Positions 4,921-57,530 of a stretch of DNA of 64,000 nt are shown here, in pieces; position 1 is the stretch's first letter; every line of letters begins with the position of its first letter. The position numbers were made by a program, and so were the translations under genes. The notes under the pieces are model-generated. The model ran no database searches. It saw only the letters and a list, made by a program, of their open reading frames with translations, and was not told the DNA's origin. The stretch is from NCBI GenBank assembly GCA_019912315.1, contig JAIOJA010000037.1:1-64000 (forward strand), given 5' to 3'. Source of the DNA: Planctomycetota bacterium. Its GTDB lineage: Bacteria > Planctomycetota > UBA8742 > UBA2392.

Positions 4921-5001
4921 CGCGCCGAACGATAACCGCGTCAGGTGTCCGGGCAAGACGCTGTTGAGGATTGAGGACTACTCGGGCAGGGCTGGCGCCG
5001 C

Positions 5002-7811: not shown

Positions 7812-8402
7812 ATGGCGGTACGACGCAAATCTCTATCAACGGGCGATATTGCCCGACACTGTCAGGTAACGCCTGCGACTGTTGTTAACTGGATCAAGGG
7901 CGACAAGCTTGATGTCTACACCACACCCGGCGGGCAGTACCGCATGGACGTTGGCGACTTCGTGGACTTCCTGCGTGACAACAAGCTGCCCATACCCGAA
8001 GAGCTTCAACCCAGCAACGAGCGCCGTCTGCTGCTGATCGACAACGACCCCGAGGTGTTGGAGAAGGCCACACAGACCATTGCCCAGTCCTTGCCGACAG
8101 TCATCCTTGAGGAAAGCGACAACGGCTATGACGGGCTGATCAAGCTGGGTGGTTTCAGGCCGCACGCGGTAGTGCTGGATCTGAACTTGCCGAACATCGA
8201 CGTGGCGGAGGGCGTGCGGCGCCTGCGCGCGAACCAGGACACGCGCAACATGTTTGTGATAGCCGTGGGTGGTGACGATACGGACGCTGACGTGATGCGC
8301 AGGGTGCGGCGCATTGGCGTGGACGCGATGCTGAACCGCCCGCTCAAGTACGACGAGCTGACCCGCACGCTGGCGAGGCTGTTGAAGCTGCCGCTGGGGT
8401 AA
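7812..8402 (+). CDS. HTH (MerR/excisionase-like) - receiver domain protein, non-canonical receiver
   Basis: An N-terminal helix-turn-helix of the MerR/excisionase type (STGDIARHCQVTPATVVNWIKGDKL, about residues 6-50) is joined to a C-terminal CheY-like receiver domain (about 75-190). The acidic pocket and phospho-acceptor Asp are present (LLLIDNDPEV and VVLDLNLPN). The usual switch Thr/Ser is Gly (IAVGGDD) and the invariant Lys of the KP motif is Arg (LNRPLKY), so phosphorylation or switching may be altered. The start at 7812 is chosen because the HTH begins there; upstream ATGs at 7755 and 7770 are possible. pilT and pilB follow on the same strand after 212 bases, so it may regulate pilus or secretion ATPases (inference). 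Confidence 0.82.
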   Translation: MAVRRKSLSTGDIARHCQVTPATVVNWIKGDKLDVYTTPGGQYRMDVGDFVDFLRDNKLPIPEELQPSNERRLLLIDNDPEVLEKATQTIAQSLPTVILEESDNGYDGLIKLGGFRPHAVVLDLNLPNIDVAEGVRRLRANQDTRNMFVIAVGGDDTDADVMRRVRRIGVDAMLNRPLKYDELTRTLARLLKLPLG

Positions 8403-39895: not shown

Positions 39896-41227
39896 CTATT
39901 TGTCGCCGTTGTTCTTCTTGGGCGGGACCTTGAAAATCTTGGTGCCGGGAACACCCTCGCGCTCGAACGTGACGACGAATTCCTGCACGCCTGCGTTGTA
40001 GTCGGTGCGGACAATGCGGCGCACGTCGCTCATGCTGGCGACCGGCTTGCCGTTGATGGCCTTGATGATGTCCCCCTTGCGCCCGCCGCGTGAGACCACC
40101 GTGTGGTCGTCCGGCACGTCGTCGGTGATCTGGATGCCGAGCGGCTTGCCCTCGCGGTCATGCACGACCTTGGCGTACTTGGCCATGTCGTCCACGTCGA
40201 TGTTCTTGTAGTCATCGGTGCCAAGCGTCCAGGTATCGGTTGCTTGGTCATAGACAGATTCTTTGGGGCGGGTGTCAACGACTTCGACGTCCGGGTTGGG
40301 CGGGGTTTCCTCGGGCAACTTCAGCTTGCTTTCGCGGGGCTTTACGGACTTGCCCATGCTGTTGATGTCCGGCAGTTCAAAAATCTTGGGGTCGGGTGAC
40401 AGCTTCACTTCATAGTAGCGGTCCTTGTACTTCGGATTCCGCGAAGGAGCCTTCATCAGCACGTGGTCCCAGTTGATCTTCAGCACCTCAAGGTCATGGG
40501 CCGCAAGCTTCTTTACTTTGTCGTCCATGGCTTCGGCGTATTCTTTGAAGTGCATCCCGCTTTGCAGGATCAGCGTTGCATTGCCGGCCTCTTTGGAAAT
40601 CACGATTCCCTTGGCGACGCTTTCGGGGCCGGTCCAGAGGCGCAGCACTGTAAACTGGGAATTGAGCCACTTCTCCAGCTCGGCCTTGAGCTGTTCGTCC
40701 GTGGGCTCAGGGTCCACTTTCTCGGAGAAACTCAGAGTGTAAGTGCCCTCGGCGGTTTCGCCGGTGGTGCCATTGGCAACACGCACGGTAACAACCGATT
40801 CCTGCGGAGTGGACTTGTTGAAGCGCAGGTTGACCGTGCGCCCGCTTTTGGCGCTCAACGACACGCCCGCCGGCACGGCCCCTTCCAGCGTCCAAGTATA
40901 CGCGGGAGTGCCGGAGCCGCCGGCGGCCGTCAGGGTAGCTTCCTTGCCAAACGTGCCGGCCGAAGGCGAAACCGATACCGCATCCGGGCGCGCAAGGGGG
41001 GACAGCATTGTGTCGCGATAGAATTCGTGGTCGGCCACCCCGGCGACATCCTGTGTCTGGGTCCAGCTTTTGCGGGGCACTTTGGTTTTCGGGGATTCCA
41101 CGCGCGCAAGCACGTCGGCCCGGTCTTCCTCAACATCGGAGAAGAACGTGTAGCCCGCAAATGCGCCGCCAGCCAACACGATCAGGTTGGCTAGCCAGAT
41201 CAACGCGCTGAGTTGCGGTCCTTTCAT
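39896..41227 (-). CDS. single-pass membrane protein with C-terminal PDZ domain, GspC-like
   Basis: Residues 8-28 form a membrane anchor (ALIWLANLIVLAGGAFAGY). Next comes a putative Ig domain (about 80-170; TLTAAGGSGTPAYTWTLEGAVPAGVS), a helical region (about 175-330) and a C-terminal PDZ domain (about 355-440). The PDZ motif is VVSRGGRKGDIIKAINGKPVASMSDVRRI. A short N-terminal cytoplasmic piece, one membrane helix and a terminal PDZ domain is the layout of GspC of type II secretion, but the Ig domain is not typical, so I call it GspC-like only. The adjacent 53-residue membrane protein, 37 bases upstream, is probably co-transcribed. pilB/pilT are 28 kb away. Confidence 0.72.
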   Translation of the reverse strand: MKGPQLSALIWLANLIVLAGGAFAGYTFFSDVEEDRADVLARVESPKTKVPRKSWTQTQDVAGVADHEFYRDTMLSPLARPDAVSVSPSAGTFGKEATLTAAGGSGTPAYTWTLEGAVPAGVSLSAKSGRTVNLRFNKSTPQESVVTVRVANGTTGETAEGTYTLSFSEKVDPEPTDEQLKAELEKWLNSQFTVLRLWTGPESVAKGIVISKEAGNATLILQSGMHFKEYAEAMDDKVKKLAAHDLEVLKINWDHVLMKAPSRNPKYKDRYYEVKLSPDPKIFELPDINSMGKSVKPRESKLKLPEETPPNPDVEVVDTRPKESVYDQATDTWTLGTDDYKNIDVDDMAKYAKVVHDREGKPLGIQITDDVPDDHTVVSRGGRKGDIIKAINGKPVASMSDVRRIVRTDYNAGVQEFVVTFEREGVPGTKIFKVPPKKNNGDK

Positions 41228-41264
41228 TGATGTTCTTTTACTTTCTACGCTGTTTCAGCGCGAC

Positions 41265-41426
41265 CTAGCGACTCATTTCGGCTGCGGGGCTGACCGGCTT
41301 CTGGGCCGGCTTCGTCCCGTCGTCCTGAAGCATGAACCAGGCGCCCAGCACGAGGCACGCCATCAGCCCAAACAGTGACAGCAGCACCACGCCCGTGTTT
41401 GTTTTCCTGCCTGCCGCGTTGTTCAT
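41265..41426 (-). CDS. 53-residue single-pass membrane protein
   Basis: This short gene opens with ATG at 41426 preceded by GAGG at eight bases. The product begins MNNAAGRKTNTG, has one membrane helix (VVLLSLFGLMACLVLGAWFML) and ends in a short Lys/Pro-rich tail. The topology is probably N-in, C-out. It lies between obg and the PDZ protein, 37 bases before the latter. It may be a partner of the PDZ protein. The good ribosome binding site and clean membrane helix make it credible despite its size. Confidence 0.65.
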   Translation of the reverse strand: MNNAAGRKTNTGVVLLSLFGLMACLVLGAWFMLQDDGTKPAQKPVSPAAEMSR

Positions 41427-41486
41427 CCCGGATCCTCAAGTTGCCCGTGATTGATACGCCCGGCGGGCAAACCCGTTGCCGGAAAT

Positions 41487-42614
41487 TCAGTCTTCTTTGC
41501 GCAGCGCGGTCAATTTGTGATGAATGGCCCATAGCAGCTCCTTCAGCCCTTGCCCGCTGACACCACTGATCAGGTGGACGGGCTGATCCAGCAGTCCGGA
41601 CAGGGCTGCTGCGCGTTCGTTGGCACCGGGTATGTCCGCTTTGTTCGCCACGATTATTCGGGGTTTGGCCGCCAGATCCTGGCTGTGGTCGCGCAACTCA
41701 TTCAGGATCACGTCGTGATCCTGCTTCAACTGTTCGGGCTCGCCTTCGCTGACGTCGATCATGTGCAGCAGCAGACGGGTGCGCTCCACGTGGCGCAGGA
41801 ACTGGTGCCCGAGCCCGCGCCCCTGTGCGGCGCCGGCAATCAGCCCTGGGATGTCCGCCATGACGAAGCGGTTGTCCTGGTCCAGCTCAACAATACCGAG
41901 ATAGGGGGACAGGGTGGTGAAAGGGTAGGCGGCGATCTTCGGGCGCGCGTGAGTGCAGCGTGCCAGCAGTGTGCTTTTGCCGGCGTTGGGCAGCCCCACA
42001 AGCCCCACATCGGCGATCAGCTTGACTTCAAGGCGCAGCTTGCGTTCTACGCCGGGGTTGCCGTCCGTGTGCTCGGTGGGGGTCTGGTTGGTGGACGTGG
42101 CGAATTGCTTGTTGCCGAAGCCGCCTTTGCCTCCGCGGGCGACGACAAATTCCATATCCGCATGGTCCAGGTCGGCGATCTGGACGACTTCGGTTTCGAC
42201 CCGCTGCTCTACAACGTCTTCGCCGGACGCGCCTTGCTCCGTGAAGGCTTCTTCCGGGGCGTTGGCCAGGTCGAGGTCGTCCGTCGCAGACGGATCGTCC
42301 GGGCCGTCCACCTTTTCGCGCAGGTCGTAGATGATGGTACCGACGGGCACTTCAACGACTTTGTCCTTGCCGTTCTTGCCGTGTTGATTCTGCGCGCGCC
42401 CTTTTTCGCCGGGCTCGGCCTTGATTTCACGGATGTTCTGGAGGTTGCCCAACCCGTTCAGGTGGTGGCTGGCGCGGAATATGACGCTGCCGCCGCGCCC
42501 GCCGTCGCCGCCGTCGGGTCCGCCCTTGGGCACGCGGGACTCACGCCGGAAGCTGACGGCGCCATCGCCGCCGCGCCCGCCTTTGACACGCAACTCATGC
42601 TCGTCAACAAACAT
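41487..42614 (-). CDS. obg: Obg/CgtA GTPase
   Basis: This is an essential GTPase linked to 50S ribosome assembly and stress control. The N-terminal Obg fold is glycine-rich (ELRVKGGRGGDGAVSFRRE, GGPDGGDGGRGG), and the G domain has G1 GLPNAGKST at about 207-215, the TLSPYLGIV switch I region, G3 DIPGLI, G4 NKAD and a G5-like SGVSGQG. An acidic insertion of about 40 residues (about 100-142, rich in Asp/Glu) interrupts the Obg fold and is not usual. There is no C-terminal OCT domain; the protein ends shortly after the G domain. rplU/rpmA, the common upstream neighbours, are absent. Confidence 0.95.
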   Translation of the reverse strand: MFVDEHELRVKGGRGGDGAVSFRRESRVPKGGPDGGDGGRGGSVIFRASHHLNGLGNLQNIREIKAEPGEKGRAQNQHGKNGKDKVVEVPVGTIIYDLREKVDGPDDPSATDDLDLANAPEEAFTEQGASGEDVVEQRVETEVVQIADLDHADMEFVVARGGKGGFGNKQFATSTNQTPTEHTDGNPGVERKLRLEVKLIADVGLVGLPNAGKSTLLARCTHARPKIAAYPFTTLSPYLGIVELDQDNRFVMADIPGLIAGAAQGRGLGHQFLRHVERTRLLLHMIDVSEGEPEQLKQDHDVILNELRDHSQDLAAKPRIIVANKADIPGANERAAALSGLLDQPVHLISGVSGQGLKELLWAIHHKLTALRKED

Positions 42615-42733
42615 GGCAGGAGAATAGCAAGCAAAGCGGCGAACAGGAGCCCGGGCGAAGGGTATCGATCGAGACGCCGGTTTGCCTTCTACGCGTGAGC
42701 CCCGCCACGTTTGTTGTCGACGCTCTGGATTGT

Positions 42734-44362
42734 CTATCTGCGCCCGGTGGGCAACGTGTAGCCTTTGCGGTCGGCGGGAGCGTGGAAGTAGCCGCTTTGG
42801 GGCTTGCCTTCCAGCCCGCTGATGTGGGTGACTTTGTCGCCGACGTATTTGCGGAATTCGTCGAACGTCACCAGTCCGTCGCGGTTGGCGTCCCCCTCGC
42901 CGCCCAGGGCCTCGAGCGCGTAGCTTGAAAACAGCCCGTGGTTCAGGTCGTCGATTTCGAGCGCGGGCATGTGGTTTTCCGATTCCACCTGCGCGTCTGT
43001 TGCGCTCAGGACGATGCAGCTTGTGCCGCGGGCCTGCACGTTCGCGATCAACGGATCAAACAGGCTGCCCGTAGTGCCCCTTTCATGCAAGGCCGCCAGT
43101 TGCGCATCGGTGATTGCGCAACGCTTGTCGCCGGGCGTCACGAAGCTGCAATCAAGCACCAGGGTCAACGTGCGCGGGTTGTTTTTGAGCAGCGCATCGA
43201 GCAGATCCTCGATGGCGATCAGCTCAAGTTCTTTGGCGCCGGGGGGCTGTGCCGTTACCAGGGCCGGGCGGAGTTGCGCGTCCACGGTGCCAAGCCCCGA
43301 AAAGACCAGGTAGACGTCGTCATTGTAGCGAGCCAGGGGCGCGAGTTCGCCCGCGGCATCCAGCACGGAGCGCCTGCTTGCGCGTGGTCCCGTAAGCGAG
43401 CGCAGCGCGCCCTCGGGCACGGAATCGTTCCGCGCGTCGATTAGCTGTGCCGCGAACGCCTGGGCGTCCTGCGTGGCGAAGCGGCTCAGGGGCAACGGGG
43501 GTTGTCCGGTGCCATCGACACCAATCACCAGGGCGACGCGACGCCGTATGCCCTCAAGGAACTCGGGTGTTCGCGACGTGTCTGCCAGGTCGCCTGTGAC
43601 GTAGCGAAGGGCGGATTTCTTGGCCTCATTTTCCGCGATGGGCATCAGCAGCCCGGCGATGCGGGTCCAGTTTTCCTCGTCAAAGTGTCCGGGTGTGCTG
43701 TAAATGCTGAACAGGTTCCAGCCCTCATCCCAGTCGTCGAGGCTGCGGATTATGGTCTCGGGCGGTTGCAGGCGGAAGCTGTCGAGCTCGATGTCGCGGG
43801 TGGTGGGGTAGGCGCGCAGGTCCACGTGCAGGTTGGCGTCGAAATCCTCGTCGGCGACCCACCAGGAGATGATCGGGCTGACCATCCACCAGATGAACAT
43901 GTTCCAGCCATAGGCGCCGTTGCTGTCCACGTAACCGACGTCCTGGCGACGCAGTGTCGGCACGATCACGACATCAAGCCCCTGGCGCAGGGCGGCGGTC
44001 TGCAAGTCTTCGCGCGGGGTGTCGGGCGTCGCGCCCTCGATCGCCTGGATCGACTCGAACATGCGGTACTTGCGCATGGTGTCGAGCAACTGCGCGTGCA
44101 GCCCGTCGGTGCCGTTGAGGCGTGCTTCGTCGGGGACCAGCACCCAGCGTGTGGTGTCTTCGACGTTGTAGCGTTTTTCGTCGAGTTCCAGTGCGCTGCG
44201 GAAAGGGGCGAGCCCGACCCGCAGTTTCAGGGGCTGCCAGCCCTCGGGGATGATCTTTTCCTCCTTCACGTCGGCATCGAGGTCCGGGACCTCGACATTG
44301 CTGCACGCGCCGAACACGCAAAGGGCCGCCGCCAATGTCAGGAGCGCCGCCAGCTTAGTCAT
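42734..44362 (-). CDS. lipoprotein with caspase-like domain lacking the catalytic His, plus EF-hand-like motif
   Basis: A lipoprotein signal ends at VFGAC (Cys20). Residues about 40-260 are a domain of unknown type. Residues about 273-505 follow the caspase/metacaspase (peptidase C14) pattern: RRVALVIGVDGTGQPPLPLSRFATQDAQ, read as IGVDG then FATQDAQAFAAQL, then DDVYLVFSGLGTVD and LTLVLDCSFVTPGD. The catalytic His of SGHG is Leu357 here, while Cys405 in LDCS remains near the expected Cys position, so protease activity is doubtful. HGLFSSYALEAL and DANRDGLVTFDEF (491-503), a canonical EF-hand loop, match the C-terminal part of bacterial caspase-fold proteins. The gene overlaps the upstream kinase gene by eight bases and is the last of the Kelch-kinase operon. 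Confidence 0.78.
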   Translation of the reverse strand: MTKLAALLTLAAALCVFGACSNVEVPDLDADVKEEKIIPEGWQPLKLRVGLAPFRSALELDEKRYNVEDTTRWVLVPDEARLNGTDGLHAQLLDTMRKYRMFESIQAIEGATPDTPREDLQTAALRQGLDVVIVPTLRRQDVGYVDSNGAYGWNMFIWWMVSPIISWWVADEDFDANLHVDLRAYPTTRDIELDSFRLQPPETIIRSLDDWDEGWNLFSIYSTPGHFDEENWTRIAGLLMPIAENEAKKSALRYVTGDLADTSRTPEFLEGIRRRVALVIGVDGTGQPPLPLSRFATQDAQAFAAQLIDARNDSVPEGALRSLTGPRASRRSVLDAAGELAPLARYNDDVYLVFSGLGTVDAQLRPALVTAQPPGAKELELIAIEDLLDALLKNNPRTLTLVLDCSFVTPGDKRCAITDAQLAALHERGTTGSLFDPLIANVQARGTSCIVLSATDAQVESENHMPALEIDDLNHGLFSSYALEALGGEGDANRDGLVTFDEFRKYVGDKVTHISGLEGKPQSGYFHAPADRKGYTLPTGRR

Positions 44363-47300
44363 CAGAGCCTTCGTCTTCGCTTAGCTTGAAATCGTTCGCG
44401 CAGCGGAAGCCGCGCCCGTAGCTGCGGTCAAGCAGTTGCGCCACACTGTTCTTTGCGCGCCGGGCGTACCGGAAAAACAGCTCCGGTCGCAGGCCCGGCT
44501 CGGCGCCCTTCACTACGGCGTGGTTGTCCCTGATGTCGCCCGTCCATTCCGCCACGTTGTTGCCCAGGTCCCGCACGCCGAGCGGGCTGTGGTCCCATTC
44601 CGTGGTGCCGACTTCGCGAGGTTCCGACACGCCGCTCACGGGGCCGTCTTCGCGGGCGCCGAAAGGGTAGTCCCGGGTTTCCGCGAGTCCGCCCTGGCGC
44701 GGCGCGCCGGCGGCAATTTCCCATTCGTCGGCGCCGGGCAGGCGCCGCCCGCTCCAGCGCGCGAAAGCGTCCGCTTCGTACCAGCTGACGCCGGCGACCG
44801 GGTGTTTTGCAAGGCTGGTGTCATAGCCGCCCTCGGCCCAGGCGGCCGGCCCGGGTTGTCCCGTGCTGTCCTTGAACAGCGACAGATAGGGGCGGGCGTC
44901 GGCGTGCCACAATTTTTCTTTGGTGTATCCGCCGTCGTCGATAAACGCCTTGAACTGCTCGTTCGTCACGAGGTAGCGATCCATGAACACGAAGCTCTGG
45001 TGGTCCACCGTTCGCTGGGGGTTGCTGTCACCTTCGCGATTGCTGCCTACAATGAACGACCCGAGCGGCAACAGCACCAGTTGCTCCGACACGGATTCCG
45101 TGGCTATGCTCAACTTGATAGTCGTCAGGTCGGCGCGGATTTCTGCGATCACGGCCTTGTCGGTAATGTACTCCAGCGCGCGCTCAAGCAACTCGCCCTT
45201 CACGCGGTTGTCCTCCGCTTCCGTGCCTTCATTGTACAGGGCCAGCCCGAGGCGTCGCCGCGCGTCGTCGCGGTATGCCAGCGCGCGTGACTTGAAGTCC
45301 GGGTCGGTCAGGGTTGGAAGCATTTCCACATAGCCGTTGTAGACCTCGGTTAGTTGCTCGGACGTCGTGGCGCGCGTGTCCGTGAGGTGCAACTCTTCCA
45401 GTTTGGCCAGTTGCAACATGCGCGTGAGCTCGGCGCGGTCTTTGTCCGTGGCGTATTCGCTGGTTTCGGCTTCCTTGAGCGCCGCCAGGATTTCCGATTG
45501 CGCAAGCCCCCAAGCCTCTTCCGCGACGGCATTGCGGGCGCCCGACAGCAGACGGTTGAAGCGGGACTGTTCCTCGACTTTCTTGTTGAGGATCGTGCGG
45601 GTGTCATCGATTTCCGGCGCAAGGCGTCCAGTGCCGGCGGCTGTGTTCAGCATCAACTCGGCGACGTCGTAGCGGTTGGTGTCCATGGCGCGTATTGCGA
45701 AGCGCAGGGCCGCCTGCGCCTTGATGGTCAGTGCGTCGGCGCGCAGCTTGTCGCCGGCGTTGCCTGACACGTTGATGGCGATCGCCTGGTCGGCCAGCGT
45801 GATGGTCTGGTTCAGGTTGTGGGTGGCCTCGCTGTACTTCGACGCGTCAAGGGCCTGCGCGGCCTTGAGGGCCGTGTCGGCGCTGGTAACCAGCGCGCGC
45901 AGCTTCTTCAGGTCTTCGGCTGTGTTTTTGCGCTGTTCAAAATCGTCGAGCCAGTTGTCGATCTCGTTGATTGCCTTCAGGGCCTCCGCCTTTTCGTCGT
46001 CAGCGCCGTCGACGCGAATCGCGCCAACGGCCTCGAAGCCCGAGCGCGAGGCGCGGTAGGCCTCGTCCAGCGTCGCCAGATCTTCACCGTTGCGTTCGCG
46101 GTCTTTGGCTGTCGTCAATTTGTCGTTCGCTGAGGCCAGGGCGTCTCGGAGCTCGCTCAGGCGACGTTCGCGTTCCCGGGCTTCCGCGGCGGTGTCGGCC
46201 TGCTCGCGCAGGGTCGTCTTGACGGTGGCGATAAGAACGTTGGCGTCCACCTGAAGGGTCTGCGCCTCCTCGCTGTCCGGGTTCAGCGCCAGCGCACTGC
46301 TGGCTGAGCGACTGACATCGAGCCCCAGGTCCTCGGCCCTCGAGTAATCACCGGTGTCGAAGGCCGTTTGTGCTTCCCGATATTTGTTCCTGGCGCCCGC
46401 AACCAGCTCGTCGGACTGCTGCACTTTCTGTTGCTGGAAATACTGCGCCACGCCGATGCCGCCGGCAATCAGCGCGCCGAGTACCAGCAGGCTGGTGATC
46501 ACCATGACCTTGTGGCGCACGATCCATTTGCCGATCAACTGCCCGATCGAGTATTCGACGGCCGCCAGGGTGCCGCCGGCCTGCCAGCTTCGCAGGTTGT
46601 CAATCAGTTCCTCGGCCGTGGCGATACGCTTGTGCGGCGCTTTCACCAGACACTTCATGGCCAGTTGGTCGAGTTCCGGCGGGATGCGCCGGTCGGGCGC
46701 GCGCTTGGTCGGCGATTCTGGATCGTGGTTCTTGACCTGGTCCAACACCTGCGCGCTGGTCTGTGCTGTCCATGGAGTCTGCATCGCAAGCAGCTCATAC
46801 AGGATGACACCAAGACTGAAGATATCCGCCTCGGGACCCATGCTGTTGACTTCGCCGCGGGCCTGCTCGGGGCTCATGTAGCTGGGTGTGCCGAGGATGC
46901 TGCCCACCATGGTGCGCGCGGCGTCGTCGTCCTGGCGGTCGCTGCGCACCTCGCGGTCGGCGGTGTCTTCCTTGCGCCCGACGATCTTGGCAACGCCCCA
47001 GTCCATGATCTGCACTTCGCCGAAGCGCCCAACCATGATGTTGGCGGGCTTCAGGTCGCGGTGGATGACGCCCCGGGAGTGCGCGAATGCCACGCCTTCG
47101 CAGACCTTGATGAAGACATCGACCAGCCGCGCGAGGGGGTAAGCGCGGATGGCGCTGGGATCCTTCTTCTTGAGTCGCTTGATGATACTGGACAGCTCCT
47201 CGCCCTCTACCAGCTTCATGGTGAAGTACAGGTTGCCGCGCCCGTCCACACCAATTTCATGGACTGGCACGATGTTCGGGTGCTCAAGCTGCCCGGTGAT

Positions 47301-49097
47301 CTGGGCTTCTTCAAGGAAGCGTTCCACGAGGTCCTTGCGGTCGAGCATTTCCTTGCGCAGGACTTTCAGCGCGACGCTGCGGCGCAGATCGTTGTCCTCG
47401 ACCTCGATGACTTTGCCCATGCCGCCGCGGGCGATTTCGCGCACGACAGAATAGCGCTTCTTTTTGCTGGTTTTCTTGAGGCGCGCCAGCGCGCCGCCTT
47501 CGGGGCTGCCGATCTTGACGCCCTGGCCCAGGCCCATCTGCTGGCGCAGGTCGGCCAGGGTCATCTCCTTGCCGGTGATGACATCGCTGCCCGCGCCAGA
47601 TTCACTCTCGTACCCGAGCTTACTATCTGTACGGTTGCGCAGTCCGGGGCGTGCGATTTCGCCCGTCGCGAACGCCGTGCGGCTTCCCGTGGTCACTTCG
47701 CTTACACCGGAGTCGTCGGCGATCTCCTCCATTGTGACGCTGTTTTCGTCAAACTCCGTGCTGGCATCCGTCGGGAACTCACCGGGCAGCGTGACGCTTA
47801 CATCGACGTCGGAATCGTCTTCAATACCGCTGGCCGGTTCCCCCATGTCGCCTCTCGGCGGAGCGGTCGCCACGAAATCTTCGGGTTCTTCGTGTTCTTG
47901 GAGATCCTGCTCACCCCTCAGGCTTTCGGAATCAAACAGCGTGCTTTCTTCCATCGGGCGCGGCGGCGCGATGGAGTCTTCCATTAACTCCGGCGGTGTG
48001 ACGCTCAGGTCCGCGGGCGGGCCGAAGTACGCGTCGTCGGCCTGCTGCATGACCTCGCCGACGGCACTGTCAACCAGATGGGCGGAGACTTCGTCGGATT
48101 CGTCGATTTCCGCCGGCACAACCGGGTCATCGTCGCCGAAGGCCGCGAAATCGTCGGTCGCACCCTTGCTGGCGCGCAACTCGAAGGGCGCGGGGGCCAT
48201 GCGTGCGAGGTCGGACTTGTCGACCGTGTCGGTCTTTGTGTCTGTGGCGGTGCGTCCCGGATCGCGCGGATAGGTTGCGGTGTCGCTTCGGGTGTCGCGC
48301 GCGTCGGACTCGAGGGGGCGGGTGGGGCGAAGCTCCGCGACGGCCTCTTCGCCGGTGAAAGTTTCGGCGCTTGAGGGCTCGTCGGCAGCCATGACAACTT
48401 CTTCATCGTCCACGAGGTCGTCAATGTTGAGGTCGCCGAGAGCGGTGTCCATACCGCCGAGGTGCGTGTCGGACACGTCGCTCGCCTGCGGAGTCAGCTC
48501 CTGCTGCCGCCCGAAGCCCTCGACGTAGCGCCCGCTGGGTGTGCGCTCCAGCAAGGCAGGCCTGGCGTCCTCGTTGTCGAAAGCCTCAATCTCGGGGCGC
48601 GAGTCGCTGTCCTCAAAAAGGCTGTCGCCGCTCTGGTCCGCGGGTGGAGGCAGCTCCATTTCAAGATGGGAATCCGCCGACGGCGCGTCCTCCACAGCGT
48701 AGGTTGGCGGCAGGGGCTCCACCAGGCGTGGCACCTCGGCAAAGCCCTCGTCGTCGGGCTCGGGGGAGATTTCCACATCGTGGACAGCGTGAAAGCGCTC
48801 TGTGTCCGGGACACGGGCACCTTCCTCAGGTTCCAGCACGCGGGCGTCGTCGTCGTCCTCATTGCCCAGGCGAGCGGCGAGATCCTCAACCGTGTCCTCG
48901 GGGCGGGCGTCAAGCAGCGCGAGCGCGGCCTCAACGCCTACCCAGCCCTTTTCGACGGCCAGTTCGTGCGCGCCGAGGTCGGGTTCGACGGCGTCGCGTT
49001 CGCGGATTTCATGCCACAGGGCGTCAACCTGGGAGTCGGAAAGCAATCCCCGCTGGCGCGCGCGTGTGAGAAACAACTCGTCGAGCTTCTGGCTCAT
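44355..49097 (-). CDS. transmembrane Ser/Thr protein kinase with C-terminal FGE-sulfatase (SUMF1-like) domain
   Basis: A small helical N-terminal domain (1-75) is followed by about 465 residues of acidic low-complexity sequence. A Hanks-type kinase domain (about 549-840) has GGMGKV, Lys578 in VALKVL, HRDLKPANIM with catalytic Asp681, DWG in place of DFG at 699, and GTPSYMSPEQA. A membrane helix lies at about 863-884 (KVMVITSLLVLGALIAGGIGV). An extracytoplasmic helical/coiled-coil region (about 890-1340) and an FGE-sulfatase domain (about 1340-1575) complete it; the latter has GSFIVGSNREGD, YLVTNEQFKAFI, HPVAGVSWYEADAFARWSGRRLP and GVRDLGNNVAEWT. The gene starts three bases after the Kelch gene stop and overlaps the caspase-like gene. 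It probably senses an external cue and phosphorylates cytoplasmic targets. Confidence 0.92.
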   Translation of the reverse strand: MSQKLDELFLTRARQRGLLSDSQVDALWHEIRERDAVEPDLGAHELAVEKGWVGVEAALALLDARPEDTVEDLAARLGNEDDDDARVLEPEEGARVPDTERFHAVHDVEISPEPDDEGFAEVPRLVEPLPPTYAVEDAPSADSHLEMELPPPADQSGDSLFEDSDSRPEIEAFDNEDARPALLERTPSGRYVEGFGRQQELTPQASDVSDTHLGGMDTALGDLNIDDLVDDEEVVMAADEPSSAETFTGEEAVAELRPTRPLESDARDTRSDTATYPRDPGRTATDTKTDTVDKSDLARMAPAPFELRASKGATDDFAAFGDDDPVVPAEIDESDEVSAHLVDSAVGEVMQQADDAYFGPPADLSVTPPELMEDSIAPPRPMEESTLFDSESLRGEQDLQEHEEPEDFVATAPPRGDMGEPASGIEDDSDVDVSVTLPGEFPTDASTEFDENSVTMEEIADDSGVSEVTTGSRTAFATGEIARPGLRNRTDSKLGYESESGAGSDVITGKEMTLADLRQQMGLGQGVKIGSPEGGALARLKKTSKKKRYSVVREIARGGMGKVIEVEDNDLRRSVALKVLRKEMLDRKDLVERFLEEAQITGQLEHPNIVPVHEIGVDGRGNLYFTMKLVEGEELSSIIKRLKKKDPSAIRAYPLARLVDVFIKVCEGVAFAHSRGVIHRDLKPANIMVGRFGEVQIMDWGVAKIVGRKEDTADREVRSDRQDDDAARTMVGSILGTPSYMSPEQARGEVNSMGPEADIFSLGVILYELLAMQTPWTAQTSAQVLDQVKNHDPESPTKRAPDRRIPPELDQLAMKCLVKAPHKRIATAEELIDNLRSWQAGGTLAAVEYSIGQLIGKWIVRHKVMVITSLLVLGALIAGGIGVAQYFQQQKVQQSDELVAGARNKYREAQTAFDTGDYSRAEDLGLDVSRSASSALALNPDSEEAQTLQVDANVLIATVKTTLREQADTAAEARERERRLSELRDALASANDKLTTAKDRERNGEDLATLDEAYRASRSGFEAVGAIRVDGADDEKAEALKAINEIDNWLDDFEQRKNTAEDLKKLRALVTSADTALKAAQALDASKYSEATHNLNQTITLADQAIAINVSGNAGDKLRADALTIKAQAALRFAIRAMDTNRYDVAELMLNTAAGTGRLAPEIDDTRTILNKKVEEQSRFNRLLSGARNAVAEEAWGLAQSEILAALKEAETSEYATDKDRAELTRMLQLAKLEELHLTDTRATTSEQLTEVYNGYVEMLPTLTDPDFKSRALAYRDDARRRLGLALYNEGTEAEDNRVKGELLERALEYITDKAVIAEIRADLTTIKLSIATESVSEQLVLLPLGSFIVGSNREGDSNPQRTVDHQSFVFMDRYLVTNEQFKAFIDDGGYTKEKLWHADARPYLSLFKDSTGQPGPAAWAEGGYDTSLAKHPVAGVSWYEADAFARWSGRRLPGADEWEIAAGAPRQGGLAETRDYPFGAREDGPVSGVSEPREVGTTEWDHSPLGVRDLGNNVAEWTGDIRDNHAVVKGAEPGLRPELFFRYARRAKNSVAQLLDRSYGRGFRCANDFKLSEDEGSDD

Positions 49098-49100
49098 GCG

Positions 49101-52100
49101 TTACTTGAATTCCACGGTCCGCAGCACGTTTGTCCCAACTGCTCTGGATAGAATCGTTCGTTCGCCAAACAGCACGTAGTATTGCCCGGTTGACTTGTCA
49201 TACAACCCTGTTGCGCCGGTCGTGTTATTGGCCACTGGCGGGGGGGTCATGTACTGCCAAGTCGGGCCGTTGGTGCCAAGCACGATGGCCTGCAGTCTCT
49301 TACGAGTCGCAGGCGCATGAACTATGCGCGAGTACTCATCATCAAAGAATCCGGCACTGGCGTTTACATCTTCTTCTTGCCCTGTGTTTGCCACACTCAG
49401 CGCCGTCCAACTGCTGCTGCTCAGACTGAAGGAATAGATCTGCCGGTTGGAACCGGAAACGACGCTATGCCCGCCACAGACCAGCACTCGGTTCTTGCGG
49501 CTGTCATAGCCGATTGTCGCACCGTAGCGGGCATCCGGTGCGGATCCGCCTGTGCCGGTAATCTGTTGCCATGTGCCCGGAAGCCCCGCTGATACATCCA
49601 GATACCAGAGGTCATTCTTCGCTCCGCTTGCGTCAACGCCGCCGAACATCCAGATGCGCTCGTTGGTTTCGTCCCAGTAGATTGCGGCGTCGCGGCGGGG
49701 AGAAGGCAGCGTGCCACCCGGGCTCAAGAGGGTCCATACGTCCGTGCTAGTGTCAAAGGCCCATACCCTGTTCTCAAGCCCTGCATTGCCGGAGCCCGGA
49801 GCACCCTTGTCGCCGCCGAACATGACGCAGACGGAGTTCAGTTCATCGAATGTCATGGCCGAGCCCCACAGTGGAGGTGGTAGGGCGCCAGACGCGCTCT
49901 TGCGTTCCCAAACTGGGTTGGTGCCGAAGGTATCAAGCGTCCATAGTTCATTGCTGGGGCCATAGTCGCATAGACCGCCGTAGATCACGCCGATGCCGTT
50001 GTCCATGGTTCCGCATGCGGACTTGCGCCCCTGTGGGCGAATGTCGATGGCGTTCTCGGGAAAGAACTCGTTGGTGCCGCCTTCGTCGAACCACCAGAGG
50101 TCGCCAAATGTCTCACCGCTTTCAAGTTGTCCGCCGTACAGGTACACGTCGCCGAATCCGGTCTTGATGAACGCGGCATCACCGCGGGGGGCCGGCCGCT
50201 CTGCAGTCGGCGTGAACACGGTCCATGCGGCAGTTCCGCTGATGTCGATACGGAACAGGTTACTATCGTAGTTTGTCTGGTTGGATACGCGTCCGCCGAA
50301 CAGGTAGATCTTGCCGCTGTTCCAGTAGCACGAACCGTTGCGAATCCCGACAGTGGGGAAGCTGCCGGTGGAAGTCAGAAGTCGCCACTTGTAGTCCGAC
50401 TCTCGCAATTCCCAAACCTGGTTGATTGCAGAAGTCGTTCCGTCTGCGGCACCGATGAAGTAGCTGCGATTGTTGGAGTCGTCGTAGCAGTGGGCAACCA
50501 GGGAGACGTCTGCCGGCGCCAGCGACTGATCCTGGGTCGTCTCGGGGGTTTTCCACTCGTCTGCGTCGGTATCGTAGATGTACGCAGTTGTCTTGTCCTT
50601 CAGGATGACAGCTTCTTCGCGTCCGAAATCCCACCATGTGTGGAATCTTGTCGTGCCCGAAAGCTTTGGGGCCTTGCTCGTGCTGCCGGGGCTGAGCTTC
50701 GTCCACGCTGGCGGCGACGCGCTAGCAGCACCGGTAAGGTCCAGTTCATACACCTCGACCGGATCAAACGCCCCCTGGCCAATGAACGCAAGCAGGCGAT
50801 CATTGACCTCATCGCTGATGCACATGATGCAGTTCGAGGACTTGGGAAGCACCGTTGATTTCGATACTTCCTCGTACACGCCGAATTCTGGAGCGCTTGT
50901 TATGTCGACCCACAGCGCGGCTTCGTCATGGACCACACGTGCGGTTTCGCTTCTACCACCGACAAACCAGACGCGATCGTTGAATGGGTCCCATACGGCG
51001 CTCGCATCGCCTCGCCCCATGGTCAAGTTGCTAGTTTCTTGCCAACTGTGCCCGTCGCCTGAGATGTAGACGTCGACAAACGCCGTCGGGTTCGGCGAAT
51101 CATTGGCCGTGGCCTGAATCGTCACCAGGCGATCCGTGCTTGTAGGAGCCGGTACGTAAAGTCCGGATGTCGGGTTGATTGTCCCAAATGGTGTGCTGAA
51201 GAAGCTCCAGGTCACGGCCTGGCTGGCCTGTGGCGGCGACACCACTGCGGTGAACTGAATCGGTTGTGATGACTGAGCCGCCGAGATGGTGACGCCTTCC
51301 GACGGAGTGATGGTCACACCAGTGGGGGGTAGTGTGGCATTGGGCTGGAGACTGATCGTAGCTGACGCGGTCACCGTCGGCGCGACAGCGCTGCGGGCGG
51401 TGATGATGATTGACTGAGCCGTCGAGCTGGTGAGGGGCGGTGTATAGAAGCCGAACTGACTGATGTTGCCCGTGGTGGGCCCCGACACCGGGCTCATTTC
51501 CCAGGTCACGGACGTGTTGGCATTGGATGGCACGAAAGTGCCCGTGGTGAACTGCTGACCGGCGCCGCCGGCGTAGACGACTGCCGAAGGCGGGGAAACC
51601 GCAAAGCTGGTCGGCGGAGGTGCTACCAGTTTGATCGAGTAGCCGCCGAACACCGACGCCTGCACCTGGCTGACGGCCTCGATGCGCACGATATCCGGGC
51701 TCGGGAGCGTCGCCGGCGCCGTGTAGAAGCCGAAACTGTTTACGTTGCCGACTGTACTGTTGCCGGAGCCCTGGTCCGCGCCGCCCCAGATGATACGCCA
51801 GTTAACGCCCGATGGGGCGTTGCCCGGCGTGACCGTGGGCGTGAATTGCAGCGACGAGCCTAGCGCCAGGTCCGGGTCGTTCCAGGCGGGAGGGTTGTTG
51901 GGATCGGGCGCGATCGTCACACCGGTTGGGTAGGGCTGGATGTTGATGCTGACCCAGTCGTACGGAATGGTCGGATCAACGCAGAAGCCACGGATCTCGG
52001 CCGAGCCGCCTGGCGGCACAACCGACGGCGCGGTGTACAGCCCAGTCGGGCTGATGGTGCCGTAGGCGCTGCCGTTGACAACGACCCAGTTCACCTGCTG

Positions 52101-54548
52101 AGGAGCGGTCGTGGGAGTAACCTGGGACGTCAACTGCACCTGCGTCGCGACCAGCGTCTCCGGGACCGGCGACTGAATGTCGATCAGGGTCGGCTGGTCG
52201 CCCCAGTACAGCGTGTGATAGTGCCTGACCGTCGTCCAGTACAACGGGTGATCGATCTCGCAGTAGAGGGTCACATACTCCGAGCCCGCGGGCACGACCG
52301 CCGGAGCGTCGTACCGGACCCAGTCTGTGCCGACACCAAAGTCCATCTGGTTCGAAACCGTGCCCGCCGTGCCCGAAAAAACCATGGGCTGCGCCAGGTG
52401 CCGCACGGGATCTAGTGATACCTCGTTGCCGAGTTTACAGGCGATCTGGTGTTGCAGGTTGACCACGCCCCCGCTGGTGTGCGTCGCCGTAATGCGCACC
52501 AGGGGATTGCCGTTGATCGCGTCGGCCAGTGCCGTGCCGGTGTCGTCCGCGTTGCCGGCCGCACCGATATATACGACGGTGGTAAGACCGCCCGTCAACC
52601 CGTTGAAATCGAACTCAAACGCCTGGGGCCCGTTCAGCCCGTCATCGATCGTGAAGGTGTCGCCATCGGTGATAAGCCCAGGTACGTTCACGGTGACCGA
52701 ACCGGTCGCGTATTGCAGACCAAGCCCGGTCGCCGGGTCCAGCAGCGTGCCGTAGTCGGCGCCTGTCTCGAGGATTTTCCAGAACGTCTCAAATCCCACG
52801 GCGCTGGAGGGGTTGATCAGATGGTCAAGGTAAACCGTGCCACCCGGCGTGACGGTGACGATGTCTGTCGGAACGCGGGCGTCATTCGTTGTGAATATGT
52901 CAATGCTGATCGGCGTGGCGCCGGCGGCGTTGTTGATGATTGGAAACGCGCTGGTGATGAAGTACGCGCCGGCCAGTTGCGCGGGCACAATCCCGCCGAG
53001 GGGGTCGTCGGTTGGTCTGACGCGCAGCACCACGGCGGCCTCATTTATGCTGGGGAACGCAAGGTTCGTGTCCCAGACCAGCACGTTATCGGCACCGAAG
53101 GGGCTGGAGACCACGTTGCCGGGATCGCCGAACACGAAGTCTGCGGCATCCAGCGCGGTCCACACCACCGTGCCGGCATTGATGTCTGTGGTGAACTCGA
53201 TTTCAAGACTGACCGGGTGGGAATTCTCGTCAAAGACTTTGAACACGACCGGCACGTTGCCCGAGTCCTGCAGGATATCAACGCTGACGACATCGGGTGG
53301 GGCGTTGCCGATCACGGTGAAGCTGTCGGTGGGCGTGAACAACCCGTCATTCGAATCTCTCGGACGCAGCACCAGCACCACATTCGTTTCCGTGACGGCG
53401 CTGCCGAAATCCGCCAGCGCGTCCCAGATGATCTGATACGGCGTCGGGCTTGGGTTGGTCAGGAAGGGCCCGGCAATGGAGGGCACAAACTGGTTCACCA
53501 ACGTCGCCGGCAGGAAGTTCGCCCCGCCATCGATCGAGTACAACACCTGTACGATCGCGGCGTCAGACTCGTCGTCGGCAAGTGTAATGTTGATCGGTAC
53601 CCGCCCCGTGAACGTCTGTCCGTCGTAGCTGTCCAACAGGCTCAATTGCGGCGGGGCGTTGATGGAGTTGTCGATAGGAAACGGCCCGGCCACGACCGGC
53701 GGCCCGACCGTATCGCTGCTGTATCCGGAAGGCCTGTCCCGTGGCGTCAACTGGATGCGCACTTCGCCGACGAAATCCGACAGGGAAAGCTGGCTCGCCC
53801 AGATGAACTGGCCAGGCGAGCCGGTGGAACTCGTCAGCATGTTGACGGGCGGGTTGCCCAGCAGTTCGTACGTGGGCGACAACGGGTCTGTGTCCACGGG
53901 GATGAAATTCTGCCCCTGGTCGATGGAATACTTCACGTCAATGCTGGCGAGGTCGCTGTTCAGGTCCGTCAGGTTGAAGCCGATCAACACGACATCCGTG
54001 CCCGTGGCCTGCACGCCGCTGATGGACGGCGCTTCGTTGCCTGCGATCTGGTTTGTCAGCATGGCCCAGCTTCCCGCCCCCTGACCGTCATCCGCGCGGA
54101 TACGGATGGTGATATCCTGCGTAACGTCCGGTCCCAGGTCGGCCGCGAAATCCCAGTCAAACACGTGGGGTGTGCCGCCGGCGCTTGAGCCAAGTGCGGT
54201 GGTGCCGTCGCCACCGCCTTCAAAGCATGGCTGAAAAGCGCCCGTCCCTACGGCGTACTGGACATCCACGCTGCACGGGTCGTTGTTGGCGTCGATGATC
54301 GTGTAACTGATGGTCGCGGGTGATACTTCGCGTTGCAGGGCAGTTACGATGACGGCCGGGACGACGTTGGTTGTCGGGGTGGTTGAGCCGCCTCCGTCTT
54401 TCTTCCCGTCGTCGTCGTTGCCGCTGAAGCCGAAGATCGCGCCGACTGAGCCGCCGCCCGCCGCCACAAGTCCCGGCCCGCAACCCGTGGTGAAGACCGT
54501 GCCCCCAAGCGCGCATACGCCAACCAGCATGAGTAAAATGCGCTTCAT
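49101..54548 (-). CDS. giant lipoprotein with Ig-like repeats and C-terminal Kelch region
   Basis: The ATG at 54548 has GGAGGAG before it and begins a lipoprotein signal (MKRILLMLVGVCALGG, lipobox near TTGC). The N-terminal third contains repeats with DLNSDLASIDVKYSIDQGQNF and DDESDAAIVQVLYSIDGGANF-like units. The middle has four or more bacterial Ig-like repeats (GVTIAPDP, PTVTPGNAPSGVNWRI, FGFYTAP). The last 600 residues are Kelch repeats (DRVWFVGGRS, KIYLFGGRV, DVYLYGGQL, RIWMFGGVD, RVLVCGGHS) forming a beta propeller. About 1815 residues in all. It is probably surface-exposed and a ligand- or matrix-binding protein. The kinase gene starts three bases after its stop, so they are co-transcribed and coupled. 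Confidence 0.88.
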   Translation of the reverse strand: MKRILLMLVGVCALGGTVFTTGCGPGLVAAGGGSVGAIFGFSGNDDDGKKDGGGSTTPTTNVVPAVIVTALQREVSPATISYTIIDANNDPCSVDVQYAVGTGAFQPCFEGGGDGTTALGSSAGGTPHVFDWDFAADLGPDVTQDITIRIRADDGQGAGSWAMLTNQIAGNEAPSISGVQATGTDVVLIGFNLTDLNSDLASIDVKYSIDQGQNFIPVDTDPLSPTYELLGNPPVNMLTSSTGSPGQFIWASQLSLSDFVGEVRIQLTPRDRPSGYSSDTVGPPVVAGPFPIDNSINAPPQLSLLDSYDGQTFTGRVPINITLADDESDAAIVQVLYSIDGGANFLPATLVNQFVPSIAGPFLTNPSPTPYQIIWDALADFGSAVTETNVVLVLRPRDSNDGLFTPTDSFTVIGNAPPDVVSVDILQDSGNVPVVFKVFDENSHPVSLEIEFTTDINAGTVVWTALDAADFVFGDPGNVVSSPFGADNVLVWDTNLAFPSINEAAVVLRVRPTDDPLGGIVPAQLAGAYFITSAFPIINNAAGATPISIDIFTTNDARVPTDIVTVTPGGTVYLDHLINPSSAVGFETFWKILETGADYGTLLDPATGLGLQYATGSVTVNVPGLITDGDTFTIDDGLNGPQAFEFDFNGLTGGLTTVVYIGAAGNADDTGTALADAINGNPLVRITATHTSGGVVNLQHQIACKLGNEVSLDPVRHLAQPMVFSGTAGTVSNQMDFGVGTDWVRYDAPAVVPAGSEYVTLYCEIDHPLYWTTVRHYHTLYWGDQPTLIDIQSPVPETLVATQVQLTSQVTPTTAPQQVNWVVVNGSAYGTISPTGLYTAPSVVPPGGSAEIRGFCVDPTIPYDWVSINIQPYPTGVTIAPDPNNPPAWNDPDLALGSSLQFTPTVTPGNAPSGVNWRIIWGGADQGSGNSTVGNVNSFGFYTAPATLPSPDIVRIEAVSQVQASVFGGYSIKLVAPPPTSFAVSPPSAVVYAGGAGQQFTTGTFVPSNANTSVTWEMSPVSGPTTGNISQFGFYTPPLTSSTAQSIIITARSAVAPTVTASATISLQPNATLPPTGVTITPSEGVTISAAQSSQPIQFTAVVSPPQASQAVTWSFFSTPFGTINPTSGLYVPAPTSTDRLVTIQATANDSPNPTAFVDVYISGDGHSWQETSNLTMGRGDASAVWDPFNDRVWFVGGRSETARVVHDEAALWVDITSAPEFGVYEEVSKSTVLPKSSNCIMCISDEVNDRLLAFIGQGAFDPVEVYELDLTGAASASPPAWTKLSPGSTSKAPKLSGTTRFHTWWDFGREEAVILKDKTTAYIYDTDADEWKTPETTQDQSLAPADVSLVAHCYDDSNNRSYFIGAADGTTSAINQVWELRESDYKWRLLTSTGSFPTVGIRNGSCYWNSGKIYLFGGRVSNQTNYDSNLFRIDISGTAAWTVFTPTAERPAPRGDAAFIKTGFGDVYLYGGQLESGETFGDLWWFDEGGTNEFFPENAIDIRPQGRKSACGTMDNGIGVIYGGLCDYGPSNELWTLDTFGTNPVWERKSASGALPPPLWGSAMTFDELNSVCVMFGGDKGAPGSGNAGLENRVWAFDTSTDVWTLLSPGGTLPSPRRDAAIYWDETNERIWMFGGVDASGAKNDLWYLDVSAGLPGTWQQITGTGGSAPDARYGATIGYDSRKNRVLVCGGHSVVSGSNRQIYSFSLSSSSWTALSVANTGQEEDVNASAGFFDDEYSRIVHAPATRKRLQAIVLGTNGPTWQYMTPPPVANNTTGATGLYDKSTGQYYVLFGERTILSRAVGTNVLRTVEFK

Positions 54549-54781
54549 GGTCTCCTCCGGTATGCAGTTGCTTGCGTCACGTAGTTTAGCGGGCGTTTCA
54601 GGGAACGCCAATGCCAGAATCTTACATATAGCCAAACAGTTTCGTTAGATCGCACAGATGTTACTGCCATCTCGCGGATGTTTCGACAATCTTCGTTGGA
54701 TCTCCGCGCTCGGTAGTGAGAGGGGGCACTGCGATGTGTCGCGCGGACTGACGGGAAGGAGTCCCCTCCCCGCACGGGGTT

Positions 54782-56329
54782 CTAGTCAGTGACTTCGCTG
54801 CCGCCGGCAGGTCCGACCAGGTCCTCGAGGCGGCGCAGGTCGTTGATCAGCACCTCGGCGCGCGGAGCGTTTTCCTGGTCCAGCAGGTTCAACTCGTCGG
54901 CGGCTTCCAGCGCGTCCAGTGTTGCCTGGCGCGCGTCGATGAAGTGCCCGCGCTTGAGATGTATGCGCGCAAGGGCCGCCTTGGCCTCGACATATTCAAC
55001 CAGTCTAAATCGCCAGTCTTCACCAAGCAGGCTGATTGACAGCACGGCCTGGGTCTCCGCCGTGGCCAGTCGCCCCAGCGCGAAGTGCACGTGCGCGCAG
55101 TTCAGCGCGCCGCGTGCGGCCTCTCGCATCAGCCCGGCGTCCCGGGCAACTTCTCGGGATTGGTTGTATTCGCGCAGAGCATCCGCATGTCGCCCGGCGT
55201 GTCGATGCAGGTCGCCTGCCATCTCGTGAACCGCGTACGTGTGCAAACGACTGGTTTTCACCGACAGCAGATTGCGGGCAGTACGCAGTTCGCGCTCGGC
55301 CCCGTCCCAATCGCCCTTGCCCATCAAAATCTCGACATTGGCAGGTGCCGTGAAGCCCAGCCAGTGTTCGCGACCCAGGGCTTTGAACTCGGACGCGGCC
55401 AGTGACAGCGGCACGCGCGCCTCGCGCCAACGCCCTTCGTCGATCAGGAGGCGCGCCAGATACAACTCAAGACGGGCCTTGCCGAATCGGTCCCCTGCTT
55501 CGTGGTAGCGATGCATCGTCGTTTCGAAAATCTCGCGCGCCTTGCTGTGCAGCCCGCAATTGGCGAACACGCAGCCCGCGTGCTCCTGGATCTCGGTCCA
55601 GTGCGTGTCGTCGGCGCCTGCCTTGAGGACTCCGTCCACCGCGCGCAGCGCCTCCCGGAACTTGCCCTGCCGGCTCCAAACGTGCGCAGCCACCGCCTTC
55701 ACCAGCAGGCGATACTCGCTGTCCGGGCATTCGTCGCCCAACTCGTCGGCGATGCGGATCGAATCAGCGGCCGCGTCCGGGCGCCCCATCTGGATGAAAA
55801 AGCGTGTGCGCACCAGCGCAAGGCGTAGATGCAGCGCCTTCAACCCAGCCGTCCGGGCCTGGTCAATCAGCCCTTCAACGATCGCAAGTGACTGTTCCGG
55901 GTTCTGCTCGTGGTCAATCCTGATGGCCGCGGAGCCGATCCCCGCCGTGAGCTTCGCGCCAAGGTCGCTATCGGCGTCCGTGACCTGACGGTAGATGCGG
56001 TCGGCGTCTTCGGGGCGTCCTGCGGTTGCATAACAAGCGGCGGCTCGCAAAAGATACGCCGTGGCTCGCTGATGATCCGGTACCAGCGCCGCGAGAGTTT
56101 CGATCAGTGCCGCTTCGCGTCCCGCGTTCTTCAGTGATCGGGCATAGTTAGCGGCAAGTTCAAGGAAGCGGATCTCCAGCCCCAGAAATACAGAAGCCGC
56201 AGGATGAGCAAGGCGTGCCTCGCGTGCCTGCTGCGCCAGCAACTCGGCAAGCGGCGCAAGCTCTTCGGGGTTCTTGGAATCAAGCGAGCCCTGCAGCAGG
56301 CTTTGAATTTCCGACGTGGGCGTCTGCAT
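54782..56329 (-). CDS. TPR-rich cytoplasmic protein
   Basis: This is a 515-residue all-helical protein of TPR or MalT-like repeats (YLLRAAACYATAGRPEDADRIYRQV, LARLLIDEGRWREARVPLSLAASEF, AGDLHRHAGRHADALREYNQS). It has no signal peptide, membrane helix or catalytic domain. It ends in an acidic tail. It lies 233 bases upstream of the Kelch operon on the same strand and may or may not belong to it. The gap between them (54549-54781) shows no clear terminator. Function unknown; probably a scaffold. Confidence 0.75.
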   Translation of the reverse strand: MQTPTSEIQSLLQGSLDSKNPEELAPLAELLAQQAREARLAHPAASVFLGLEIRFLELAANYARSLKNAGREAALIETLAALVPDHQRATAYLLRAAACYATAGRPEDADRIYRQVTDADSDLGAKLTAGIGSAAIRIDHEQNPEQSLAIVEGLIDQARTAGLKALHLRLALVRTRFFIQMGRPDAAADSIRIADELGDECPDSEYRLLVKAVAAHVWSRQGKFREALRAVDGVLKAGADDTHWTEIQEHAGCVFANCGLHSKAREIFETTMHRYHEAGDRFGKARLELYLARLLIDEGRWREARVPLSLAASEFKALGREHWLGFTAPANVEILMGKGDWDGAERELRTARNLLSVKTSRLHTYAVHEMAGDLHRHAGRHADALREYNQSREVARDAGLMREAARGALNCAHVHFALGRLATAETQAVLSISLLGEDWRFRLVEYVEAKAALARIHLKRGHFIDARQATLDALEAADELNLLDQENAPRAEVLINDLRRLEDLVGPAGGSEVTD

Positions 56330-56450
56330 CGCACGGCCGATTGCATAAGGACGGGTTGTTAGAGAATTTACGTTAGCCCGTCGCCCGTGTTAGGCAATGC
56401 AAATAGGGCTTTTTTTGCAGAATACGTGCAGTGTGGTCGCTCACGCTGCC

Positions 56451-57509: not shown

Positions 57510-57530
57510 GGTTCTCTCCGTGTGCAAGGC

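Follow-up and report, generated by a model that had tools for sequence, protein, structure and literature searches.

Planctomycetes carry unusually many Ser/Thr kinases, and we found almost no descriptions of the inputs to which these kinases respond. Among the closest described proteins are planctomycete kinases with SUMF1 domains, which are mostly predicted to be periplasmic (PMC11032199); the text of that study mentions neither caspases nor lipoproteins. The FGE and caspase folds are known to occur together on single chains: of 671 prokaryotic caspase homologues, 33 carry such a fusion (PMC3501461). In ternary conflict systems, about 70% of the caspase domains found in the effector position are inactive (PMC7159879).

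Here we analyse a trio of genes in the first 64,000 nucleotides (the window) of contig JAIOJA010000037.1 from a Planctomycetota bacterium (assembly GCA_019912315.1), which brings together an Ig-like/Kelch lipoprotein, a membrane-spanning Ser/Thr kinase with an outer FGE-like domain and a lipoprotein with a dead caspase fold. We found no description of this trio in the literature searched, which lay mostly outside subscription papers, and looking there for Kelch lipoproteins of planctomycetes that are linked to kinases returned nothing relevant. The finding is real and goes further than a preliminary description of this DNA had recognised: in planctomycetes the three parts make up a module that includes a dead-caspase lipoprotein and a propeller of changeable type.

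Architecture of the three genes

The genes lie head to tail on the minus strand (Table 1). Gene 1 starts with an ATG at 54548, just preceded by GGAGGA, and its stop ends at 49101; gene 2 runs from an ATG at 49097 to a stop ending at 44355, and the ATG of gene 3 is at 44362. The resulting spacings are +3 and −8 bases; coordinates, strand and spacing agree with the preliminary description. These three open reading frames are not due to chance, because they are long (1815, 1580 and 542 codons) and have orthologues at approximately 29–75% identity in the family to which the genome belongs (the home family). As the nearest neighbours on the same strand, a TPR gene lies 233 bases upstream and the gene for Obg 119 bases downstream; promoter and terminator scans gave matches at chance level and yielded no operon boundary. 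Elsewhere in the window, ARAGORN made a single tRNA call, a tRNA-Ile at 17389–17476 whose AAT anticodon is odd for a bacterium and which is possibly a false call.

Table 1 Features of the trio, in window coordinates.
Feature	Position	Strand	Residues	Remarks
Gene 1	49101..54548	-	1815 aa	Ig-like/Kelch lipoprotein; orthologue upstream of kinase in home family
Gene 1 lipoprotein signal peptide	54483..54548	-		lipobox TTG|C23
Gene 1 Ig-like repeat region	51069..54371	-	60-1160	Big_2 at 789-841
Gene 1 C-terminal Kelch beta-propeller	49104..51056	-	1165-1815	PF24681, 167.7 bits
Gene 1/gene 2 gap	49098..49100	-		3 bases, gene 1 stop to gene 2 start
Gene 2	44355..49097	-	1580 aa	single-pass Ser/Thr kinase
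Gene 2 conserved N-terminal helical segment	48873..49097	-	1-75	32-69% identity in home family
Gene 2 variable acidic linker before kinase domain	47463..48872	-	76-545	
Gene 2 kinase domain	46578..47462	-	546-840	63-91% identity in home family
Gene 2 transmembrane helix	46437..46505	-	865-887	
Gene 2 all-helical TPR-like outer stalk	45093..46415	-	895-1335	AlphaFold2 and Foldseek (TPR proteins)
Gene 2 FGE-like (SUMF1) outer domain	44388..45086	-	1338-1570	no CxxxxC cysteine pair
Gene 2/gene 3 overlap	44355..44362	-		8 bases
Gene 3	42734..44362	-	542 aa	caspase-fold lipoprotein
Gene 3 lipoprotein signal peptide	44306..44362	-		lipobox FGA|C20; C20 invariant in 29 homologues
Gene 3 N-terminal HpaA/PqiC-like lipoprotein domain	43577..44302	-	21-262	AlphaFold2 and Foldseek
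Gene 3 Trp-rich insertion AYGWNMFIWWMVSPIISWWVADEDFD	43838..43915	-	150-175	conserved across phylum
Gene 3 pseudo-caspase domain	42788..43549	-	272-525	model, Foldseek and profile
Gene 3 caspase catalytic His position	43292..43294	-	357	Leu; never His in home family
Gene 3 caspase catalytic Cys position	43145..43147	-	406	Ser; Ser or Ala in home family
Gene 3 EF-hand-like loop DANRDGLVTFDE	42857..42892	-	491-502	

The product of gene 1 has the hydrophobic N-terminal stretch and lipobox cysteine (C23) of a lipoprotein, followed by Ig-like repeats and a Kelch propeller, both matched by Pfam (Big_2 and PF24681). For the comparisons described below, the profile of the Ig part in the home family (IGN) was built from gene 1 residues 60–600. 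The home genome has a second Kelch-repeat open frame, of 1365 aa, which is located away from the trio (G000:C30:1249-4032).

Gene 2 has Pfam matches to Pkinase (PF00069, 159 bits) and FGE-sulfatase (PF03781, 102 bits), and one strong hydrophobic segment, at residue 865. The features by which Hanks-type Ser/Thr kinases are recognised, namely the glycine-rich loop, the VAIK lysine, the HRD and DFG aspartates and the APE motif, are all present (GGMG 558, VALK 575, HRDLKP 679, DWG 699 and SPEQ 742) and are conserved across the home family, so the protein is predicted to be an active kinase. No other part of the system is as well conserved as its kinase domain. The linker that precedes it is rich in acidic residues (26% Asp and Glu in residues 76–500). 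Outside the membrane, the AlphaFold2 model of the ectodomain has a pLDDT of about 90 in the stalk and below 50 in model residues 569–667, which lie in the FGE-like part, and was therefore used for the helical stalk only. The FGE fold was identified by sequence, through the PF03781 match and matches to FGE and EgtB structures. Among home-family kinases this domain is 53–73% identical, versus 27–50% for the stalk. The home genome gives more than 25 kinase-domain matches, and the closest paralogue of gene 2, an open frame of 771 aa (G000:C67:157914-159470), is 49% identical to it over gene 2 residues 485–1004.

Gene 3 also encodes a hydrophobic stretch with a lipobox cysteine (C20). An AlphaFold2 model, with 29 homologues in the alignment, reached a pLDDT of 91.4 and was matched by Foldseek to metacaspase 9 (E 6e-10), as well as to HpaA (8t8d), to XCC0632 of DUF330 (2iqi) and to 8z5n. 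The last three matches probably belong to the N-terminal domain of the model, because those proteins have no caspase domain. In a Pfam scan of the 29 pseudo-caspase homologues no named family was found for the N-terminal domain, for which Foldseek alone gave a match. The sequence profile of the gene 3 family finds metacaspases independently (metacaspase-1, E 5e-8) and 10 of the 29 homologues have a Peptidase_C14 Pfam match (best E 2e-12); NF047832, the model for EACC1-associated caspases, gives gene 3 30.6 bits, below its curated cut-off of 140. Judging from profile and model together, the predicted caspase fold is secure.

Caspase catalysis needs a histidine and a cysteine. In the home family the histidine position is occupied by V, L, I, T or M and the cysteine position by S or A, and an active caspase protease was rejected given the loss of this dyad. 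Two further elements of gene 3 are shared by its homologues. The Trp-rich insertion AYGWNMFIWWMVSPIISWWVADEDFD, which sits between two long strands and may contact a membrane or the kinase, is recognisable in all 29 aligned sequences; E172 is the same in every one of them, and N154, W158 and D171 in almost all. The EF-hand-like loop DANRDGLVTFDE is mostly retained, and the caspase fold is possibly calcium-binding.

Conservation of the trio and recurrence across Planctomycetota

Relatives were named by a family-profile scan of genome contigs, all of them from Planctomycetota metagenome-assembled genomes. An orthologue of gene 3 was present in 16 of 16 home-family genomes (its own genome included), and the order gene 1-gene 2-gene 3 was found in each of the 14 with long enough contigs, counting one contig that carries the end of gene 1 only (G002) and one genome whose gene 1 seems to be interrupted by a frameshift (G001); the remaining two, G005 and G008, are cut by contig ends. 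In G001 the Kelch gene lies in two overlapping frames (L052:3703-9215), reflecting either an assembly error or a true frameshift. The preliminary description had proposed that the grouping would prove accidental if the homologues were not neighbours elsewhere; they are neighbours, here and in the more distant loci described below, and the grouping withstands this test strongly. The flanks vary, with Obg adjoining the trio in the two nearest genera only and the upstream TPR gene not found in the relatives retrieved.

The whole trio is duplicated in three genomes of one genus, each with two trios, whose A and B copies separate into the same clades whichever of the three proteins the tree is built from. 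These trees agree at genus level, with minor rearrangements between them in the nearest genus on weaker support, and are consistent with vertical inheritance. Adjacency proves that the genes are inherited together, not that their products touch.

Loci of other Planctomycetota families were scanned with a profile of each part. This gave a distant set of 41 open reading frames in which the caspase fold is accompanied by the N-terminal domain, from 17 families, and a control set of 22 caspase open reading frames without the N-terminal domain of the gene 3 type. A kinase and/or FGE reading frame lay within 600 bases at 25 of the 41 pseudo-caspase loci, compared with 1 of 22 controls (Fisher p 9e-6); the 16 loci that have none count against the sensor proposed below. 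Because the 41 loci are interrelated and several come from the same genomes, the count per family is the safer number: such a neighbour was found in 16 of the 17 families outside the home family. The catalytic dyad has been lost in 39 of 40 readable distant homologues; 20 of the 22 controls keep it. The inactive look of the caspase fold in the preliminary description is confirmed (L357/S406 in gene 3) and extends across the phylum. The only distant homologue with an intact dyad (L084) belongs to f16, which is also the single family in which no kinase neighbour was seen. At this locus (G030 L084:4657-7975) two caspase lipoproteins adjoin, both with His and Cys intact and with no kinase neighbour, and they are possibly active relatives of the dead form.

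The lipoprotein partner also recurs. An adjacent reading frame was matched by the Ig/Kelch profiles at 13 of 41 loci, versus 0 of 22 controls. According to Pfam matches in the adjoining large reading frames, the plan of this partner is constant (Ig/TIG repeats and/or a propeller) and the type of propeller varies: Kelch at L069, L073 (with Big_5) and L087, NHL at L072, L075, L135, L137 and L139, FG-GAP with TIG at L083 and L136, and TIG only at L089 and L146. The partner occurs in either gene order; at L073 the members are the same and the order is altered to kinase, pseudo-caspase, Kelch lipoprotein. At L134 (G062, 3947-8263) a single reading frame joins a matrixin-like domain, TIG domains and a pseudo-caspase part of the lipoprotein type, a fusion which argues for contact between the TIG and pseudo-caspase parts.

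Two other arrangements were seen in these scans. Kinase reading frames at four loci (L139:8440-12318, L142:6928-13113, L143:6589-12996 and L145:3069-6998) each have two separate kinase-domain matches, the first being weaker, and are possible tandem or pseudo-kinase pairs. In G097, one reading frame (L170:6860-11203) combines protein kinase domains with a caspase domain whose His and Cys are intact, in contrast to the split, dead-caspase arrangement of the trio.

A candidate envelope sensor and its alternatives

A signalling role of the trio is likely and, on balance, we think that it forms a three-component extracytoplasmic sensor of the envelope, in which two lipoproteins signal through one membrane-spanning Ser/Thr kinase. 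The preliminary description had spoken of an outside-to-inside signalling system, which is still the best reading. The direction within this reading, as well as the ligand and the contacts, is what we infer; sequence alone does not distinguish it from inside-out control. For both lipoproteins the membrane placement is presumptive, and the surface location that the preliminary description predicted for the propeller is a putative one.

In the sensor that we propose, the propeller of the Ig/propeller lipoprotein would be a recognition head which binds a putative envelope or extracellular ligand, with the Ig repeats as a spacer. The gene 3 product, with its HpaA/PqiC-like domain and dead caspase fold, would be an adaptor. 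It would respond to the state of the head and contact the kinase on its outer portion, most probably via the conserved FGE-like domain at the tip of the long stalk. Binding of ligand to the head could then alter the contact between pseudo-caspase and FGE-like tip, so that the kinase is clustered or released. Once switched on, the kinase would phosphorylate cytoplasmic targets, possibly including its own long acidic N-terminal region. A ligand-gated contact is the most economical mechanism. In this anatomy the head, the non-catalytic adaptor and the kinase tip would share one side of the inner membrane, with the intact kinase on the other. Direct contact between the FGE and caspase folds is further supported by the fusions of the two in other prokaryotes mentioned above.

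More tentatively, the recurrence of these parts may reflect a phylum-wide class of receptors, in which a dead caspase acts as an envelope co-receptor gating a transmembrane Ser/Thr kinase via a non-enzymatic FGE-like domain. If this is true, the exchangeable Kelch, NHL and FG-GAP heads would give different specificities, and a head that changes type on a transducer that stays would inform how receptor systems evolve. The trio is a concrete candidate input pathway for one planctomycete kinase, and a caspase fold that serves for binding alone, in a compartment other than the cytoplasm, would bear on the evolution of this fold outside animals.

The most substantial alternative, which we consider unlikely, is a structural assembly of the envelope that serves adhesion, attachment or secretion. 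Its FGE-like domain would be a non-enzymatic building block of the GldK/PorK kind, and the kinase would control assembly from the inside. The PorK/GldK lipoproteins, which have an FGE-like fold and belong to the type 9 secretion ring, do match the domain weakly; scaffolds and adhesins typically have features such as a TPR-like stalk and a giant Ig/propeller lipoprotein; and the Trp-rich insertion could embed in a membrane. However, genes for secretion, pili or adhesins were not seen travelling with the trio, and a propeller type that varies while kinase and pseudo-caspase stay is a better fit to a changeable recognition head.

The preliminary description had also hinted at a conflict or regulated-death system, in which the caspase fold would be the effector and the FGE and propeller domains sensors of an invader. 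Caspase, FGE and kinase modules do recur in such systems, and the kinase and caspase models of PADLOC match, if generically. We nevertheless regard this function as improbable and the hint as unsupported: the parts of the trio are predicted to be extracytoplasmic or belong to a single-pass kinase, the catalytic dyad is lost, and the trio is present in every sampled home-family genome rather than patchily, with trees that fit vertical inheritance and with no Peptidase_C14 protein detected elsewhere in the home genome. The three genes contain no MoxR, STAND, death-like or effector-associated domains and no NTPase core (MoxR-vWA or STAND), and no repeats of the kind used by diversity-generating retroelements (DGR) lie nearby, there being no direct repeat of at least 40 bases, such as a template/variable pair would give, in 40000–58000. 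Two related candidates were rejected, namely a known defence system, as the PADLOC matches were to generic kinase and caspase models only, and a DGR-diversified FGE domain, as there are no such repeats and the FGE-like domain shows conservation instead of variability.

Inactive caspase domains of bacteria have been suggested to act in a dominant-negative way (PMC7159879), and the dead caspase could on this precedent inhibit an active caspase of its own cell or serve as a decoy for it. This is very improbable, as there is no other Peptidase_C14 match in the home genome (approximately 89% complete), nor any in several near relatives in which the trio is retained, and the pseudo-caspase is predicted to be exported as a lipoprotein.

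An active FGE carries a pair of active-site cysteines (a CHRSYC-like or CxxxxC motif). The clear homology to FGE and EgtB could suggest that the FGE-like domain of gene 2 is an enzyme acting beyond the membrane on a partner protein or on a sulfatase, but there is very little chance of this, since no CHRSYC-like segment occurs in any of 17 aligned family kinases and the cysteine pair has no counterpart in the conserved C-terminal segment of any home-family member.

That the grouping is an accident of synteny among related family members, whose neighbouring genes often stay together, is hardly credible, and the trio is with near certainty a true grouping, as it stays while its flanks change, duplicates as a unit, and recurs as a kinase/pseudo-caspase/propeller association in many other families with gene order altered.

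Comparison with described systems

The trio shares individual parts with several known systems. Its kinase resembles the PASTA kinases (PknB, Stk1 and StkP) in being single-pass with an outer sensor part, and its kinase domain is most like PknA/PknB among solved structures. It differs from them in having a TPR-like stalk, an FGE-like domain and dedicated lipoprotein partners; Pfam found no PASTA repeats in gene 2, and the PASTA kinase model NF033483 matches it over the kinase domain only (239.8 bits, cut-off 450).

The N-terminal domain of gene 3 appears, from Foldseek, to have the same fold as HpaA and PqiC (DUF330), unlike which gene 3 adds the Trp-rich insertion and a C-terminal pseudo-caspase domain. 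A non-enzymatic FGE-like fold outside the inner membrane is shared with GldK/PorK of the type 9 secretion ring, but PorK is a lipoprotein in a secretion machine and the fold in the trio is the tip of a kinase. VMAP and STAND-type conflict systems (PMC7159879, PMC8195603) likewise re-use caspase, FGS/FGE, beta-propeller and inactive enzyme folds; they are cytoplasmic and NTPase-centred, with variable effectors, and the trio is without these defining parts. As in the caspase/FGE-sulfatase fusions (PMC3501461), a caspase fold is paired with an FGE fold; in the trio the two reside on separate exported or membrane proteins instead of one chain, and the dyad is lost. Gene 2 has the architecture of the planctomycete SUMF1/FGE kinases (PMC11032199), with which it shares a cytoplasmic Pkinase domain, one transmembrane helix and an outer FGE-like domain, and from which it is set apart by being tied to two dedicated lipoproteins.
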